From the IMG/VR virus record IMGVR_UViG_3300002514_000087, positions 11,918 through 37,863 of that record: 25,946 nucleotides of DNA; one strand, written 5' to 3'. The stretch's first letter is position 1; every line of letters starts with the position of its first letter. Position numbers and translations under genes: made by a program. The notes beneath the pieces were generated by a model, which was given only the letters and a program-made list of their open reading frames with translations, had not been told where the DNA came from and made no database searches. Source of the stretch: a virus. Shown here piece after piece: positions 166 through 15,519 of this stretch.

Positions 166-194
166 AATATAACCCGTTGAGGTTATGTTGTCAA
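166..194 (-). promoter_or_regulatory. Early sigma-70 promoter P1
   Basis: The -35 box TTGACA is at 194-189 and the -10 box TATATT at 171-166, separated by exactly 17 nt. The 3' half of the spacer, ending AACGGGT, is shared with P2. The start codon it serves is at 128, giving a leader of about 30 nt. It is one of four near-identical promoters in this end of the window. Confidence 0.85.
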
Positions 195-336: not shown

Positions 337-365
337 AATATAACCCGTCAAGGTTATGCTGTCAA
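337..365 (-). promoter_or_regulatory. Early sigma-70 promoter P2
   Basis: TTGACA is at 365-360 and TATATT at 342-337 with a 17-nt spacer that ends GACGGGT. The TGA stop codon of the 137-residue gene upstream lies inside the -35 box. It serves the lipoprotein gene starting at 307. Confidence 0.85.
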
Positions 366-775
366 GTTTTTTCTGGAACAAAATTATACTTTGTTCCATC
401 TGGAAATTCTATAGACGACAAATTTATTCCTGCGGCTTGAAATTCTTTAACTCTTCTGATGTTAATTGAATCATAAGGGTGGTCTTGAATTTCTACTAGC
501 AAATCTCTCATAGCTGTTAGGTTCTCTATTCTTGGTTGATTATTGTGCCCTTGAGGAGTAAATTTATCTCCCAAAAGCGTACTATAAACCTTATAAACAG
601 ACCAACCTGTGACATCCTGCGAAGGCCTAACTGCTTTGGCCCACAGGGCAATTTGATCGTTAACCCAAACACGAGTGTCCCTATTTGGTTTTGTTTCTTG
701 CCATCCGATTCTTTCAATAATATCGTCATGGATTTCTTGCCTATCTGGTTTCTTAAGATCAATTACGTTATTCAT
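362..775 (-). CDS. Hypothetical protein, 137 aa, coupled to the FtsZ-like gene
   Basis: I do not recognise this protein. I chose the start at 775 (MNNVIDLKKPD) over an in-frame upstream ATG at 841 because CAGGAG lies at good spacing before it and because the ATG overlaps the TGA of the preceding FtsZ-like gene by 4 nt, a typical translational-coupling junction. The protein is polar, with a charged N-terminal helix-like segment (residues 9-26), a tryptophan-rich centre and a C-terminal region with IRRVKEFQAAG. There is no signal peptide or membrane segment. As the last gene of the polymerase/FtsZ-like operon it could be an accessory or adaptor of the filament protein, as TubR is for TubZ, but no winged-helix signature is evident and this is guesswork. 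Confidence 0.8.
   Translation of the reverse strand: MNNVIDLKKPDRQEIHDDIIERIGWQETKPNRDTRVWVNDQIALWAKAVRPSQDVTGWSVYKVYSTLLGDKFTPQGHNNQPRIENLTAMRDLLVEIQDHPYDSINIRRVKEFQAAGINLSSIEFPDGTKYNFVPEKT
374..398. other. Perfect 9-bp stem-loop just upstream of promoter P2
   Basis: TGGAACAAA (374-382) and TTTGTTCCA (390-398) form a perfect 9-bp stem with a 7-nt loop. It sits 8 bases upstream of the P2 -35 box and inside the last codons of the 137-residue gene. There is no T tract on the coding strand, so it resembles the stem-loop half of a PeSL cassette, or a 3'-end RNA stabiliser, more than an intrinsic terminator. Confidence 0.6.
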
Positions 776-1584
776 TTTTTCTCCTGTATAAAATGTGTGT
801 AGTGTTTGGTATAGTAGTAACTCTCTGTTTCTTCTGTTGACCAAATTGCAAATGAAGTTTCTCTCCCTAAATCTTTACTCTCTTTAGCCATAGCTTTTAC
901 GTTAGGCAAGACAGAAATGTCATTAGCAAGCTCTTCCTCATTTATGTTTATAATATAACTCGTTTCAGTGATGTTGTCAAGTGGAAAGAATAGTTTTTCT
1001 TCACTTTTTTCTAAAAGGCCATGGCCCAGTGTTGTGATACGACTGATTGGTTTGGGACGATGAAGGCTTCCGAATTCAGGCTTTACATTTTTACAATAAT
1101 TCAATGTATGAATGGCGGAATAAACATAATGATTGACCTTTGTGAAGTAATCATAGATAGTCCCATGTCCTACCAAGTCTATAAGCGATCTATTATCCAA
1201 GAGCACAACCTCGTTAATCAGTCCAGATCTGCTATATTCCTGTATGACGTTAAAATGTACACGACTTCTCAACCTATCTTCTTCAGAAGAATATTCCAAG
1301 TCTGTCACAATGAAGACTACCGTCATTTTAACGTGCTTGAGGCCCTCTAGAATGCGCAGCGTGGATCCAGCAACCTTACCGCTACCACAAACAAATAGAA
1401 TGCCCTCACGGGCCGATTTGATAGCCTTTTTACGAGGCTTGTATTCCACTGAGTCATACGCTTCAACTGTGTCTTGTTTCTTGATTCCTTTTCCTTCATC
1501 AAGAAGTTCCACATGGTATTGATCATGGACCTTAAACAACTTTGCAATGTTGCATCCGCCTTCTCCAAGTCCTACAATTATCAT
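772..1584 (-). CDS. Divergent tubulin/FtsZ-like GTPase-fold protein
   Basis: The 270-residue protein follows the FtsZ fold from end to end. Residues 1-16 (IIVGLGEGGCNIAKLF) match the first FtsZ nucleotide loop GxGxxGxN. Residues 62-80 (ILFVCGSGKVAGS onward) sit where FtsZ and tubulins carry the GGGTGTG signature, but the loop is altered. Residues 88-105 match the strand and loop TVGVVTKPF...R of FtsZ, and N151 with YVYSAIHTL fits central helix H7, where FtsZ has ANDVLKGAV. The T7 loop reads VKPEFGS where FtsZ has NVDFAD, so the catalytic acid appears to be lost. Residues 209-267 show the strand-helix-strand-strand of the C-terminal domain. It is shorter than FtsZ and lacks a C-terminal tail. 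It starts with ATG 4 nt inside the upstream gene (ATGA junction). Phage tubulins (PhuZ, TubZ) position DNA; this one is too divergent to place in those families by eye. Confidence 0.65.
   Translation of the reverse strand: MIIVGLGEGGCNIAKLFKVHDQYHVELLDEGKGIKKQDTVEAYDSVEYKPRKKAIKSAREGILFVCGSGKVAGSTLRILEGLKHVKMTVVFIVTDLEYSSEEDRLRSRVHFNVIQEYSRSGLINEVVLLDNRSLIDLVGHGTIYDYFTKVNHYVYSAIHTLNYCKNVKPEFGSLHRPKPISRITTLGHGLLEKSEEKLFFPLDNITETSYIININEEELANDISVLPNVKAMAKESKDLGRETSFAIWSTEETESYYYTKHYTHFIQEKK
952..980 (-). promoter_or_regulatory. Early-type promoter P3 inside the FtsZ-like gene
   Basis: TTGACA is at 980-975 and TATATT at 957-952 with a 17-nt spacer ending ACGAGT. It lies within the coding sequence, about 175 nt before the start of the 137-residue gene, which it could express separately. 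The -10 region and following bases (TATATTATAAACATAA) are identical to those of P2, so a chance match is unlikely. Confidence 0.65.
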
Positions 1585-1787
1585 TTTTTCTCCACTTTTT
1601 CTATTTCATCACGGAAGAGATAGTAAACCTTTCCATCGATAAGAACTCCATAAACATTTTGATTATCAAATTTTGGTTCTGTTTCTACCACCACTCCCAC
1701 CAGTCCTGCCTTTATTGTTCCGGCAGGTGATCTCATTTGATCTATTCTTGGAAGAGTAATAACCAAATCCCCTTCGCTCAAGTCCAT
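1581..1787 (-). CDS. Small SH3-like beta-barrel protein, 68 aa
   Basis: The protein opens MDLSEGDLVITL and contains GLVGVVVETEP, YGVLIDGKVYYL and a charged C-terminus, a run of short strands separated by turns that looks like a small SH3/KOW-type barrel. Similar short strand-rich proteins are widespread in large marine phages, generally without known function. AGGAG lies 6 nt before the ATG; the gene overlaps the end of the polymerase gene by 10 nt and its TGA overlaps the ATG of the FtsZ-like gene by 4 nt, so it is translationally coupled on both sides. That position suggests an accessory to either neighbour. No signal peptide or membrane segment is present. Confidence 0.8.
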   Translation of the reverse strand: MDLSEGDLVITLPRIDQMRSPAGTIKAGLVGVVVETEPKFDNQNVYGVLIDGKVYYLFRDEIEKVEKK

Positions 1788-2971
1788 TTAAGCTCCTGCA
1801 TTTCCCCTAAATTTTTGCCTATATGACAAGAAGAGGGAAATCTCCCCAAACGAGTATCTTCGAAAATTTCTTTTAACTGCGGAATAATAGAACGATCATC
1901 CCGATGAAGGTCAATAATAACGCAATCGTGTATAGTAAAGGCGACATAACTTTTCCTGTCCCTTAAGAATACATTGATCTTATTGACCCGTTCCAGACAA
2001 TTATCACTGGAATGTGACTGGAGCACATAGTTGAGGGCGTGGAAGGAGTCGCAGGCGGCTTGTCGTCCGAATCTGGTTTGTATTTTTTCTTCTCGGTAGT
2101 ATTGTCCCAAAATGGCTTCTTTGTCGTAGGGACTGGATTCGAGTGTTTGGGAGTTGGGGTTGTAGAGCCACGCGAAGAATCTTTGCTTTGCTTCGTCACG
2201 ATCAATTTCTTCTTTAAAAATATTTTGTTGATGCCATTCATGTATATCTCCTTGTGGTTGGCTTTCTCCCGAGAGGGAGAGCAGGGTTCTTATCTCAGCA
2301 GCGTTGAAGTCGAGTTCTACAAAACAATCCCATTTAGGTTCTACTGCTGATTTTAATTCTTTTTTTAAATTCATAATGGGAAAGCTTCCTGGTCTGGTTG
2401 TGAGGCGTCCGGTTTTACTACCGAACAGATTATAGTTCACAATGGGATTTGGATTTGATTGGAGCCATGACAACAGTTGTTTTGCTTTTAAGTCGGTCTT
2501 GGCCCAATTATATAGTTTGTGAAGGTTTATGTTCACTCTGTTTTTACTAATGTCTTGGATTGTTATATAAGAGTCATGAAGAAAAGAATAGTTCTTTGGC
2601 TTCTCCAAGTTTTCGAAAACCCAATCGCAAATTTCATTTTTTACTTCAAAATAATGCTGGAGTATTTTGTGTGGAACCAAGTCATAAAAACAAATATCAT
2701 CAAAATTTATCTGAGCTATCTGGAAAGACTTAAAGTGTGCTTTGATAGATCTCTCATAAGCTTCAAATCTAATTTTTAAATGCTCTGGACAACAATCTTT
2801 GATAGATTGACCGCCAGTCCAAAGGTAACCGTAGTGAATAAACTTATCCCTAAGATGGTCAGAATAGCCCCAAGTGCTATCGAAATCTTGAAAATTCTTT
2901 TCATAATTAAACTCTCCATCTGCATAAAACCCTATGCAGTCTTGCTTGTTGTCTAAGACTTGAAATACCAT
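1778..2971 (-). CDS. Compact family A DNA polymerase (PolA-like palm/fingers)
   Basis: The C-terminal 215 residues carry the family A polymerase motifs in order. TGRL at 187-190 precedes motif A, D221-FNAA-E226-I-R228, matching Pol I DYSQIELR. Motif B, R258..K262...F266...Y270, matches Pol I R754/K758/F762/Y766. FGR at 301-303 and Q318 follow, and motif C is H348-D349-C350. The second acidic residue of HDE is replaced by Cys; both metal-binding aspartates (D221, D349) are kept. The N-terminal 170 residues show no 3'-5' exonuclease or 5' nuclease motifs. At 397 residues it is far shorter than Pol I (about 930) or T7 gp5 (about 700). It should extend DNA in the cytoplasm, perhaps for repair, gap filling or initiation. 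It is the first gene of an operon driven by P4; GGAGG precedes the ATG. Reduced activity from the motif C change is possible. Confidence 0.85.
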   Translation of the reverse strand: MVFQVLDNKQDCIGFYADGEFNYEKNFQDFDSTWGYSDHLRDKFIHYGYLWTGGQSIKDCCPEHLKIRFEAYERSIKAHFKSFQIAQINFDDICFYDLVPHKILQHYFEVKNEICDWVFENLEKPKNYSFLHDSYITIQDISKNRVNINLHKLYNWAKTDLKAKQLLSWLQSNPNPIVNYNLFGSKTGRLTTRPGSFPIMNLKKELKSAVEPKWDCFVELDFNAAEIRTLLSLSGESQPQGDIHEWHQQNIFKEEIDRDEAKQRFFAWLYNPNSQTLESSPYDKEAILGQYYREEKIQTRFGRQAACDSFHALNYVLQSHSSDNCLERVNKINVFLRDRKSYVAFTIHDCVIIDLHRDDRSIIPQLKEIFEDTRLGRFPSSCHIGKNLGEMQELKWT

Positions 2972-3000: not shown

Positions 3001-3029
3001 AATATAGCCTGTTTACTGCTTGCTGTCAA
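3001..3029 (-). promoter_or_regulatory. Early sigma-70 promoter P4
   Basis: TTGACA is at 3029-3024 and TATATT at 3006-3001 with a 17-nt spacer ending CAGGC. The spacer contains the TAA stop codon (3015-3013) of the 399-residue virion-region gene. It is placed to transcribe the polymerase, SH3-like, FtsZ-like and 137-residue genes as one early operon. Confidence 0.85.
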
Positions 3030-4212
3030 GCATTTTCTTGAACTTTTTATCATAATAAGTCAAACTACCATCTTTGAGATTATATTTAGAGCGGAATTGA
3101 TCATCAATAAACCGAAGCATTTTCCCTTGCGAATGTTGTCTCATTAAGATAGCATTCTTTTGTAAGTCTTTAATGCGTGTCATATTGAAAGGATTTCTTT
3201 CTTCTATGTTTCTTATATGTATATATAAATTAATAATTTTATTATTATATATACCTTCTATATTATTCATTGTTATATAATCCCTGGTTGTGATTGTTGA
3301 TGATAATTTAGCTTCACAAACAGTAAAAGTTCGTTTAAGATAGTTGGAACTTATAAAAGAATTATATCCATCTAATAATAATTGGGTTAATTTTGGAATG
3401 TCTTGATACAGTGTTCTCTGGAATTGTTGCCTGAAGATAACGTTGATAGAAGGAAGACCTATCTTGGCTCTATAAGGTGCTGTTCCTGGACTTTGAAGAT
3501 CGGAAATAAGAACCCCCGGGTTTCGTTTGTTCACAGAAAAACCATACTGTTTTGCTAAATTTAAATAAAATGGTAAACAAGGGCTATCTAAGATCAGCTG
3601 TTCTTTTTGGAGGTCACTAGAGAATGAAAGACCTGCAATGTCTACAGCCAGAGCAGAAGTAAAAATAGAACTATTATTAGACTTTTGAAAACCCGAATAA
3701 GTAACTGGACTTCCGTCTCTCATAATTTTCATAAATTGGGGGAAATAAGTCAAATAGTCATCAAAGCTATTAATATCATGGGCATATTTTGTCAAGAATT
3801 GATTTGAATAAAGACCAAAGATTTCGTCAACGTAGGAATCATACAGATCTTCGGGATCCTCATAACCACGCCTAGCCTGAATATTTGAAAAAATAGGATC
3901 ATCATTTGGAAGCAGCCCCATTCTTATAGCATTACTAAAGTGTGCACTAAAATCTCGAAATTGATCAGCAACAAAATTCATCAGCACAACTGTGCTGGTG
4001 GCATCATTACTCTCTGCCACTTTTAATCTCTCCAGTTTAGGAACTACAGGTGTTAAAGACCTATCTACTCGCCCATAGAGAGTTCGCTCGGCGAAATTAA
4101 AATCTACAACCTGAGGTGGATTGTCCCCGAAGGCTTGTGAATTATATTTGACTCGCGTACCAGCGAGTGCACGAGTGGATTTGATTGAGTTTTTTCCATA
4201 AAATTTAGGCAT
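3013..4212 (-). CDS. Unassigned protein at the end of the late operon, 399 aa
   Basis: I do not recognise a family. The protein starts MPKFYGKNSIKS with GGAG before the ATG and lies 17 nt after the 1808-residue hub-like protein, in the same run of baseplate genes, so it is probably a virion or tail-assembly component. It has a basic N-terminus, a region rich in Phe, Tyr and Asp (about residues 80-160), and a basic, helix-prone C-terminus with KDLQKNAILMRQHSQGKM. No signal peptide, membrane segment or catalytic motif is evident. Its last codons overlap early promoter P4, so this gene marks the border between late and early regions. A baseplate wedge, fibre-attachment or chaperone role would fit the position, but the sequence does not distinguish these. 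Confidence 0.8.
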   Translation of the reverse strand: MPKFYGKNSIKSTRALAGTRVKYNSQAFGDNPPQVVDFNFAERTLYGRVDRSLTPVVPKLERLKVAESNDATSTVVLMNFVADQFRDFSAHFSNAIRMGLLPNDDPIFSNIQARRGYEDPEDLYDSYVDEIFGLYSNQFLTKYAHDINSFDDYLTYFPQFMKIMRDGSPVTYSGFQKSNNSSIFTSALAVDIAGLSFSSDLQKEQLILDSPCLPFYLNLAKQYGFSVNKRNPGVLISDLQSPGTAPYRAKIGLPSINVIFRQQFQRTLYQDIPKLTQLLLDGYNSFISSNYLKRTFTVCEAKLSSTITTRDYITMNNIEGIYNNKIINLYIHIRNIEERNPFNMTRIKDLQKNAILMRQHSQGKMLRFIDDQFRSKYNLKDGSLTYYDKKFKKMLDSKQ

Positions 4213-14425: not shown

Positions 14426-14953
14426 TTAACTGCCTGCTAGAGTTGCATAATCATATGAAACATCTAGTTCAATTTCGACCAAGTCATCGTCTGCAAACGA
14501 CAGAGCGCCGAAATTAACTTTCTTTATCCAAGCGCCATTAAGAGTCCAAGTTTCTATAGGGGCGCCTTTGGAGTCCAATTGTTCAATTACTATTTGATCA
14601 ATCACACCGTCCGTTGAGGAAGGGCTTTGCTTAAAAATCCCAGATCCTCCGGGTTTCGTTTTATGACCACGAGCTTCCAGTTCGTCGATTAAAGCTTTAG
14701 TGGGGCTGATTCCTAGCGTTGTCTCGGAACCTGGATCTACAACTGTAATGCTGATATCTTCCCAAGTTGCAATCCCAGGATATTTAAACTTGTGGTTTAT
14801 TAACTGATATTCTCCGCCATTGACAGAATAAGTGGGTTTATCGATAGATTTTGCAAACCACCAAAACCCTTCAATTTGTGCAGAGCTCGGGGTTGAAAAT
14901 CGGAATCGAAATTTTCGCTTGGGTTCTAATTTTGAGTTTGCCCAAAAAGTCAT
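14426..14953 (-). CDS. Tail tube protein, second paralogue (gp19-like), 175 aa
   Basis: The protein shares its architecture with the tube protein encoded just upstream: MTFWANSKLEPKRKFRFRF, a WWFAKSIDKPTYSV segment, FKYPGIATWEDISITVVDP, and a C-terminal ETWTLNGAWIKKVNFGALS followed by DDDLVEIELDVSYDYA. These correspond block by block to MAFW, WWAKGFKTPSYEI, YYFPGRLTWGDSSMTLVDP, EQWTLKNAFIKSVSFSDLA and DDLRTIDITFRYDWA of its neighbour. T4 has a tube protein (gp19) and a related tube initiator (gp54), so this could be a second tube subunit, an initiator or a terminal ring. The ribosome site is weak (CTGAGG), suggesting lower expression than the upstream copy. Confidence 0.85.
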   Translation of the reverse strand: MTFWANSKLEPKRKFRFRFSTPSSAQIEGFWWFAKSIDKPTYSVNGGEYQLINHKFKYPGIATWEDISITVVDPGSETTLGISPTKALIDELEARGHKTKPGGSGIFKQSPSSTDGVIDQIVIEQLDSKGAPIETWTLNGAWIKKVNFGALSFADDDLVEIELDVSYDYATLAGS

Positions 14954-14976: not shown

Positions 14977-15519
14977 TTATGAGCCGTTGCTAAATTGCTC
15001 GGTAGTCCCTCCATCACTTGAGCATGTTGCCCAGTCGTAACGGAAAGTAATGTCAATTGTTCTTAGGTCATCGTTGTCGTATGCAAGATCGGAGAAAGAC
15101 ACAGATTTAATAAAAGCGTTTTTCAAAGTCCATTGTTCAACCGAATTGCCTTCGGCATCTATAATGTCAACAACTACAGAACCCAATGCGCCATGAGAAG
15201 CCGGACGACTGATTGTGTCATATTCAGCCTCATTCTTAACTTTATAACCAGATCCAATAATAATCTGGTTGGTTTCCTCTACCGCATTGATTGGTGAAAT
15301 AGGATCAACTAAAGTCATGGAAGAATCTCCCCATGTTAACCGTCCTGGGAAATAATATTTATTATCCAAATAATCATGAGCAGTTTCTGAGATTTCATAT
15401 GAAGGTGTCTTAAAACCTTTTGCCCACCAAATTACTGAACCTCCGTTCATTCCCTGAATGAGAACCTTAAAACGATAGTTTCGTTTCGGTGCTGCGGATG
15501 ACTGATTCCAAAATGCCAT
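14977..15519 (-). CDS. Tail tube protein, first paralogue (gp19-like), 180 aa
   Basis: It starts MAFWNQSSAAPKRNYRFKV and shows the phage tube pattern: a WWAKGFKTPSYEI strand pair, LTWGDSSMTLVDP, EQWTLKNAFIKSVSF and DDLRTIDITFRYDWA near the end. Length fits T4 gp19 (163 aa). The gene follows the sheath gene, as in T4, and has a better ribosome site (AGGAG, 9 nt from ATG) than the second copy. It is probably the main tube subunit, forming the inner tube through which DNA passes. The C-terminal 15 residues (SSDGGTTEQFSNGS) are an extra, flexible tail not shared with its paralogue. Confidence 0.88.
   Translation of the reverse strand: MAFWNQSSAAPKRNYRFKVLIQGMNGGSVIWWAKGFKTPSYEISETAHDYLDNKYYFPGRLTWGDSSMTLVDPISPINAVEETNQIIIGSGYKVKNEAEYDTISRPASHGALGSVVVDIIDAEGNSVEQWTLKNAFIKSVSFSDLAYDNDDLRTIDITFRYDWATCSSDGGTTEQFSNGS

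Follow-up and report, generated by a model that had tools for sequence, protein, structure and literature searches.

What does a tubulin-like gene do just downstream of a DNA polymerase gene in a phage genome, and does its product form a filament there? The pair lies at one end of the window, the stretch of 25,946 nucleotides analysed here, which spans bases 11918-37863 of a viral record 37.9 kb long. The polymerase operon is encoded on the minus strand, behind a cluster of virion genes (major capsid Gp23, tail sheath, tail tube, baseplate), and is organized as follows.

3013-4212, minus strand: conserved upstream neighbour of the polymerase gene, 399 aa
1778-2971, minus strand: mini family A DNA polymerase, 397 aa
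1581-1787, minus strand: putative SH3-like protein, a label taken from the first-pass annotation, 68 aa
772-1584, minus strand: FtsZ-like protein with a predicted divergent tubulin/FtsZ fold, 270 aa
362-775, minus strand: orphan, 137 aa counted from its ATG

The open reading frames of the window at 362-2971 confirm the tight packing described before, with overlaps of 10, 4 and 4 nt between the polymerase, SH3-like, FtsZ-like and orphan genes. Beyond the window the same strand continues with genes for a gp32-type SSB, RecA, a 5'-3' exonuclease and a DnaB-type helicase, and the polymerase/FtsZ-like locus is the head of a phage replication module. The 399-aa upstream neighbour is without a Pfam match. 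Elsewhere in the window, the adjacent minus-strand genes at 14426-14953 and 14977-15519 both match the tail tube family phrog_4542 and, judged by these matches, may be two tail tube paralogues.

The FtsZ-like protein is encoded by at least 188 viral contigs from uncultured phages, of which the best 80 were kept. It was found in none of 84,980 prokaryote genomes scanned, within the reach of the pattern-based method, and a protein search of 50,697 phage records returned no relative. The collections searched gave no isolated phage with its host for this clade. The order upstream neighbour, polymerase, SH3-like gene where present, FtsZ-like gene, SSB, RecA, 5'-3' exonuclease and DnaB is kept on one strand in 81/81 viral loci for the genes in view. 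The SH3-like gene aside, the polymerase gene is the nearest recognised gene upstream of the FtsZ-like gene in all 68 loci with the polymerase in view, the other 13 of the 81 being too short to judge; the two genes overlap by 7 nt in nine of the 68 loci and lie 187-949 nt apart in the others. The 399-aa neighbour precedes the polymerase in every locus where it is visible. These adjacencies were scored from loci fetched with the FtsZ-like protein, and a peptide-pattern search with the polymerase gave one locus only. The linkage of polymerase and FtsZ-like gene proposed in the first-pass annotation is hence conserved, while the wider proposal of a conserved four-gene unit holds for these two genes only: for the orphan no relatives were found in the loci at E 1e-3, and the SH3-like gene is conserved in the near clade only. 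The open literature searched, which covers part of the field, holds no earlier description of a polymerase-linked phage FtsZ or tubulin and returned only jumbo-phage PhuZ/TubZ work and general papers.

The FtsZ identity of the 270-aa protein is not revealed by single-sequence searches of Pfam, PHROG or the PDB, and a profile search of PDB sequences misses the fold as well. Structure prediction gives it clearly, in agreement with the earlier assignment. An AlphaFold model built from 27 relatives reached a pLDDT of 86.6 and a pTM of 0.87; among the five models two score about 85 and three about 70. Foldseek comparison of the model with the PDB gives FtsZ or TubZ for every one of the 50 best matches, with E from 4e-11 and a TMq of up to 0.72, and the top match in a structure search of a viral library is a phage protein named FtsZ. 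The model has the two-domain tubulin/FtsZ fold joined by helix H7, with the secondary structure elements in FtsZ order through H7 and the C-terminal domain. Based on these models we confidently assign the protein as a divergent member of the tubulin/FtsZ fold. That it is some other Rossmann-like nucleotide-binding protein, for example an NAD-binding one, and no tubulin relative is very improbable: 20-22 of the 27 members do have weak Pfam hits to NAD-binding domains (at best 2e-4 for Sacchrp_dh_NADP and 1e-3 for TrkA_N) and the sequence-profile match to FtsZ is weak, but the Foldseek matches to FtsZ and TubZ span almost the full length of the phage protein, with helix H7 of the core and the C-terminal domain both covered, and the 50 best PDB hits contain no dehydrogenase.

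The profile alignment to FtsZ is weak but in register, with P=0.0055 and a score of 28.4; none of 60 column shuffles scored above 26.2, and an unrelated polymerase profile scored 25.0. Because this support is weak, residue-by-residue equivalences are tentative. With this reservation, N131 and N151 occupy the positions of E. coli FtsZ N165 and N186 and are each present in 68/68 sequences, the position of F182 is Tyr or Phe147 in all 68, and R142 probably corresponds to R106 (68/68), where the alignment is one position off. The T4-loop signature GGGTGTG is absent from the family and GSGK[VI]AG stands in its place, with Lys70 of this motif found in 68/68 sequences. The T7 loop of FtsZ carries catalytic aspartates that act on the nucleotide of the next subunit, and the substitutions D210N, D213N and N208L (S. 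aureus numbering) impair filaments (PMC8936486). In the tentative alignment of the phage protein, the D209 position of this loop is Asp or Glu in 48/68 sequences, and most members have a non-acidic residue at the D212 position, chiefly Lys, Ser or Arg. The secondary structure list of the model contains no clear S3, H8 or H9. In the model the chain stops close to the end of strand S10 and carries no C-terminal extension; family members terminate at about 265-290 aa, shortly past the last strand, and lack the C-terminal peptide with which FtsZ contacts FtsA/ZipA. Retention of the pocket residues together with loss of the T4 signature and the T7 aspartate makes nucleotide binding plausible, with the kept residues likely forming a guanine pocket, while canonical GTP hydrolysis is unlikely and canonical filaments are doubtful. 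The phage protein thus resembles FtsZ in overall fold, in element order and at the positions of R142, N165, F182 and N186, and differs from it not only in the missing GGGTGTG loop, D212, S3/H8/H9 and C-terminal tail but also in having turned up only in viral contigs, where it is part of a replication operon.

Codons 54-82 of the FtsZ-like gene, which surround the T4 loop (window about 1340-1425, minus strand), show strong synonymous-codon constraint across distant relatives, for example at K70 (AAG), G69 (GGT) and E80 (GAG). RNA structure was considered as the cause and set aside, no pairs being predicted in the 18 sequences tested.

PhuZ and TubZ, tubulins of phages and plasmids, are about 315-480 aa long. 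They share the tubulin fold and an occurrence in phages with the FtsZ-like protein, and TubZ is among its top structural matches, whereas the phage protein described here has 270 aa, lacks the GTPase signature and the C-terminal extension used in the filament, and is encoded next to a polymerase in phages of about 190 kb. The first-pass annotation had suggested a filament that positions replicating phage DNA in the manner of PhuZ, which here would have to use a different longitudinal contact. Both the tubulin fold, nearest to FtsZ and TubZ, and the linkage to replication genes fit this idea. In addition, FtsZ D212G retains under 1% of GTPase activity and does not treadmill but still forms rings, which are static (PMC7320174), so that loss of D212 alone leaves filaments possible. 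However, GGGTGTG, H8 and any C-terminal extension past S10 are missing along with D212, and the genomes, at about 184-192 kb, are under jumbo-phage size. With the GTPase signature, the T7 catalytic aspartate and H8 all absent, a PhuZ/TubZ-like positioning filament is not supported and we regard it as unlikely. Divergent members of the FtsZ superfamily have been described as FtsZl-1 and FtsZl-2 (PMC2875224); they possess GGGTG(S/T)G and occur in cellular gene contexts, while the phage protein lacks the motif and keeps H7. For FtsZl-1, that study could not recognise the T6-H7 elements and did not decide on filament formation (PMC2875224).

The same pattern of kept and lost elements could also be expected of an inhibitor of host cell division, a protein that would cap host FtsZ or sequester it and so keep the infected cell undivided. 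The bottom (T7/H8) face is missing while the likely nucleotide pocket is kept; a GTP-bound top face is proposed to dock onto the bottom end that FtsZ filaments expose, and toxicity has been reported for bottom-face FtsZ mutants (PMC8936486). Phages do block FtsZ, as exemplified by T7 Gp0.4 (PMC13423816). On the other hand, the top face is altered too, having no S3 and a changed T4 loop, and the gene is fixed in the replication module at every locus, which is unexpected for a host-takeover gene. A role against host FtsZ is in our view improbable, to about the same degree as a positioning filament, although the kept and lost elements suit it, like a replication factor, better than a dynamic filament of the PhuZ/TubZ type.

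The reading we prefer, with a probability of roughly 0.45, is that the FtsZ-like protein binds a nucleotide and serves the phage replication machinery as a scaffold or regulator. It is favoured by the fixed position of the gene between the polymerase and the SSB-RecA-exonuclease-DnaB genes in 81/81 loci, although gene neighbourhood is no proof of a shared process. As such a replication factor the protein would most likely bind guanine nucleotide and would neither hydrolyse it nor stack head to tail as FtsZ, TubZ and PhuZ do. The more specific proposal, in which a tubulin-fold protein devoid of filament dynamics is a core nucleotide-sensing part of a replication machine whose labour is divided in a bacterial-like way between a DnaE replicase and a split Pol I, is tentative and somewhat less probable. 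Explanations other than those considered here have only a small share of the probability. Known phage relatives of tubulin are cytoskeletal filaments, whereas this widespread viral family keeps the tubulin fold and not the filament machinery. If the replication role is true, the tubulin fold would be used beyond cytoskeletal filaments, and a connection of a tubulin relative with DNA replication could be put to the test.

The partner gene encodes a minimal family A polymerase, as had been proposed. The Pfam DNA_pol_A match (E=1e-6, 28.4 bits) is under the cut-off of 34.3; the PHROG DNA polymerase match is at 8e-14, and an AlphaFold model, which contains fingers, palm and thumb-like helices, has Pol I-type enzymes as its Foldseek matches (E about 1e-10, prob 1.00). 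Motifs A (D221), B (R258, K262, F266, Y270) and C (H348-D349) are intact, invariant in the alignment and found in full-length loci. No 3'-5' exonuclease domain was matched in the 397-aa protein, which has no room for one, and PF01612 is absent from three long relatives. Compared with the Klenow part of E. coli DNA polymerase I, the phage enzyme shares the polymerase domain fold and motifs A, B and C but is without the proofreading domain, and the 5'-3' exonuclease is encoded by a separate gene of the module, an arrangement that would recall a split Pol I.

The first-pass annotation had assumed a T4-type family B replicase beside this enzyme, a premise at odds with the gene content of the relatives. 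No family B polymerase (PF00136) is found in five relatives' records, which are possibly incomplete, and phmmer returned no match to T4 gp43, gp44, gp62 or gp45 in the two longest relatives, G001 and G003. Instead, the family C replicase DnaE is present in 7/7 relatives tested (the window's own record is a fragment), with a length of 1155-1175 aa in the two longest. The relatives resemble T4 in their T4-type virion genes, a gp32-like SSB and gp41- and UvsX-like matches, and differ from it in their DnaE and in the four replisome proteins missing from G001 and G003. The idea that the mini-polymerase is the sole polymerase of these phages was dropped on finding DnaE. Because all seven relatives tested carry DnaE and no family B polymerase was found, the mini-polymerase looks like an accessory enzyme. 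It would represent an exonuclease-free Pol I core working beside a DnaE that is encoded elsewhere in the relatives, and probably fills gaps together with the separate 5'-3' exonuclease of the module. The two longest relatives (L038-L057) combine DnaE, T4-type virion relatives and a separate mini family A polymerase. In a further record, G006 (L121, L122), DnaE is matched by two separate reading frames, which are 544 and 717 aa long and lie about 1.3 kb from each other, perhaps because the gene is split or carries an insertion.

The gene order of mini family A polymerase, SSB, RecA, 5'-3' exonuclease and DnaB-type helicase is also found in Flavobacterium phage immuto and Microcystis phage Mel-JY01. 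In contrast to the loci described here, the stretches read from these two phages gave no FtsZ-like match, and a PolB is present in Mel-JY01. DnaE had no match in the immuto or Mel-JY01 record. In Mel-JY01 (L123 13561-14787, 18956-19996), a gene annotated as DNA polymerase I matches the 5'-3' exonuclease, and the match to the mini family A polymerase, in which the motifs are altered, is a hypothetical protein without annotation.

The operon had been described as driven by one strong promoter. This promoter is present ahead of the polymerase gene but is not the sole one, an equally good match lying inside the FtsZ-like gene.

3001-3029, minus strand: promoter ahead of the polymerase gene, TTGACA-17-TATATT, 11/12
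952-980, minus strand: promoter within the FtsZ-like coding sequence, TTGACA-17-TATATT
337-365, minus strand: promoter downstream of the orphan, TTGACA-17-TATATT type
166-194, minus strand: further promoter, TTGACA-17-TATATT type

The -35 box of the internal promoter is kept in 58 of 68 relatives, including 45 of 51 at under 85% DNA identity. Of the Leu codons at position 202 of the FtsZ-like gene, 46/49 are CTT (background 0.25), and of the Asp codons at position 203, 45/46 are GAC (background 0.39). The -10 box ends on the third base of codon 211, which is T in 58/58 carriers even though the encoded residue varies (I, Y, L, N, T). Among the ten sequences without the -35 box this base is T in only one, and Leu-Asp is replaced in nine. 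These counts come from related sequences and are not independent, and other parts of the gene show codon bias too; the combined conservation pattern nonetheless makes a strong sequence-level case for the internal promoter. The LDN peptide encoded at this site seems to be kept by the promoter rather than by the protein, and the element represents a clean case of one DNA stretch serving as both promoter and conserved coding sequence. It should supply extra transcript for the downstream replication genes, and its location suggests that the polymerase and the downstream genes can be expressed apart, a point that counts against the replication reading. Downstream promoters were considered as compensation in lineages without the internal promoter and were rejected, as the carriers mostly have such promoters too.

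On the main coding strand, G001 has 26 and G003 has 28 copies of the promoter motif, versus 1 and 3 on the other strand, mostly in intergenic positions. The consensus in these two genomes is TTGACA(A)-GTTATATT, nearly all copies being on one strand. At 215-307 of the window (minus strand), a 30-codon open reading frame with a lipobox-like LTIIGC, read by eye, lies directly behind its own TTGACA-17-TATATT promoter and possibly encodes a tiny lipoprotein.
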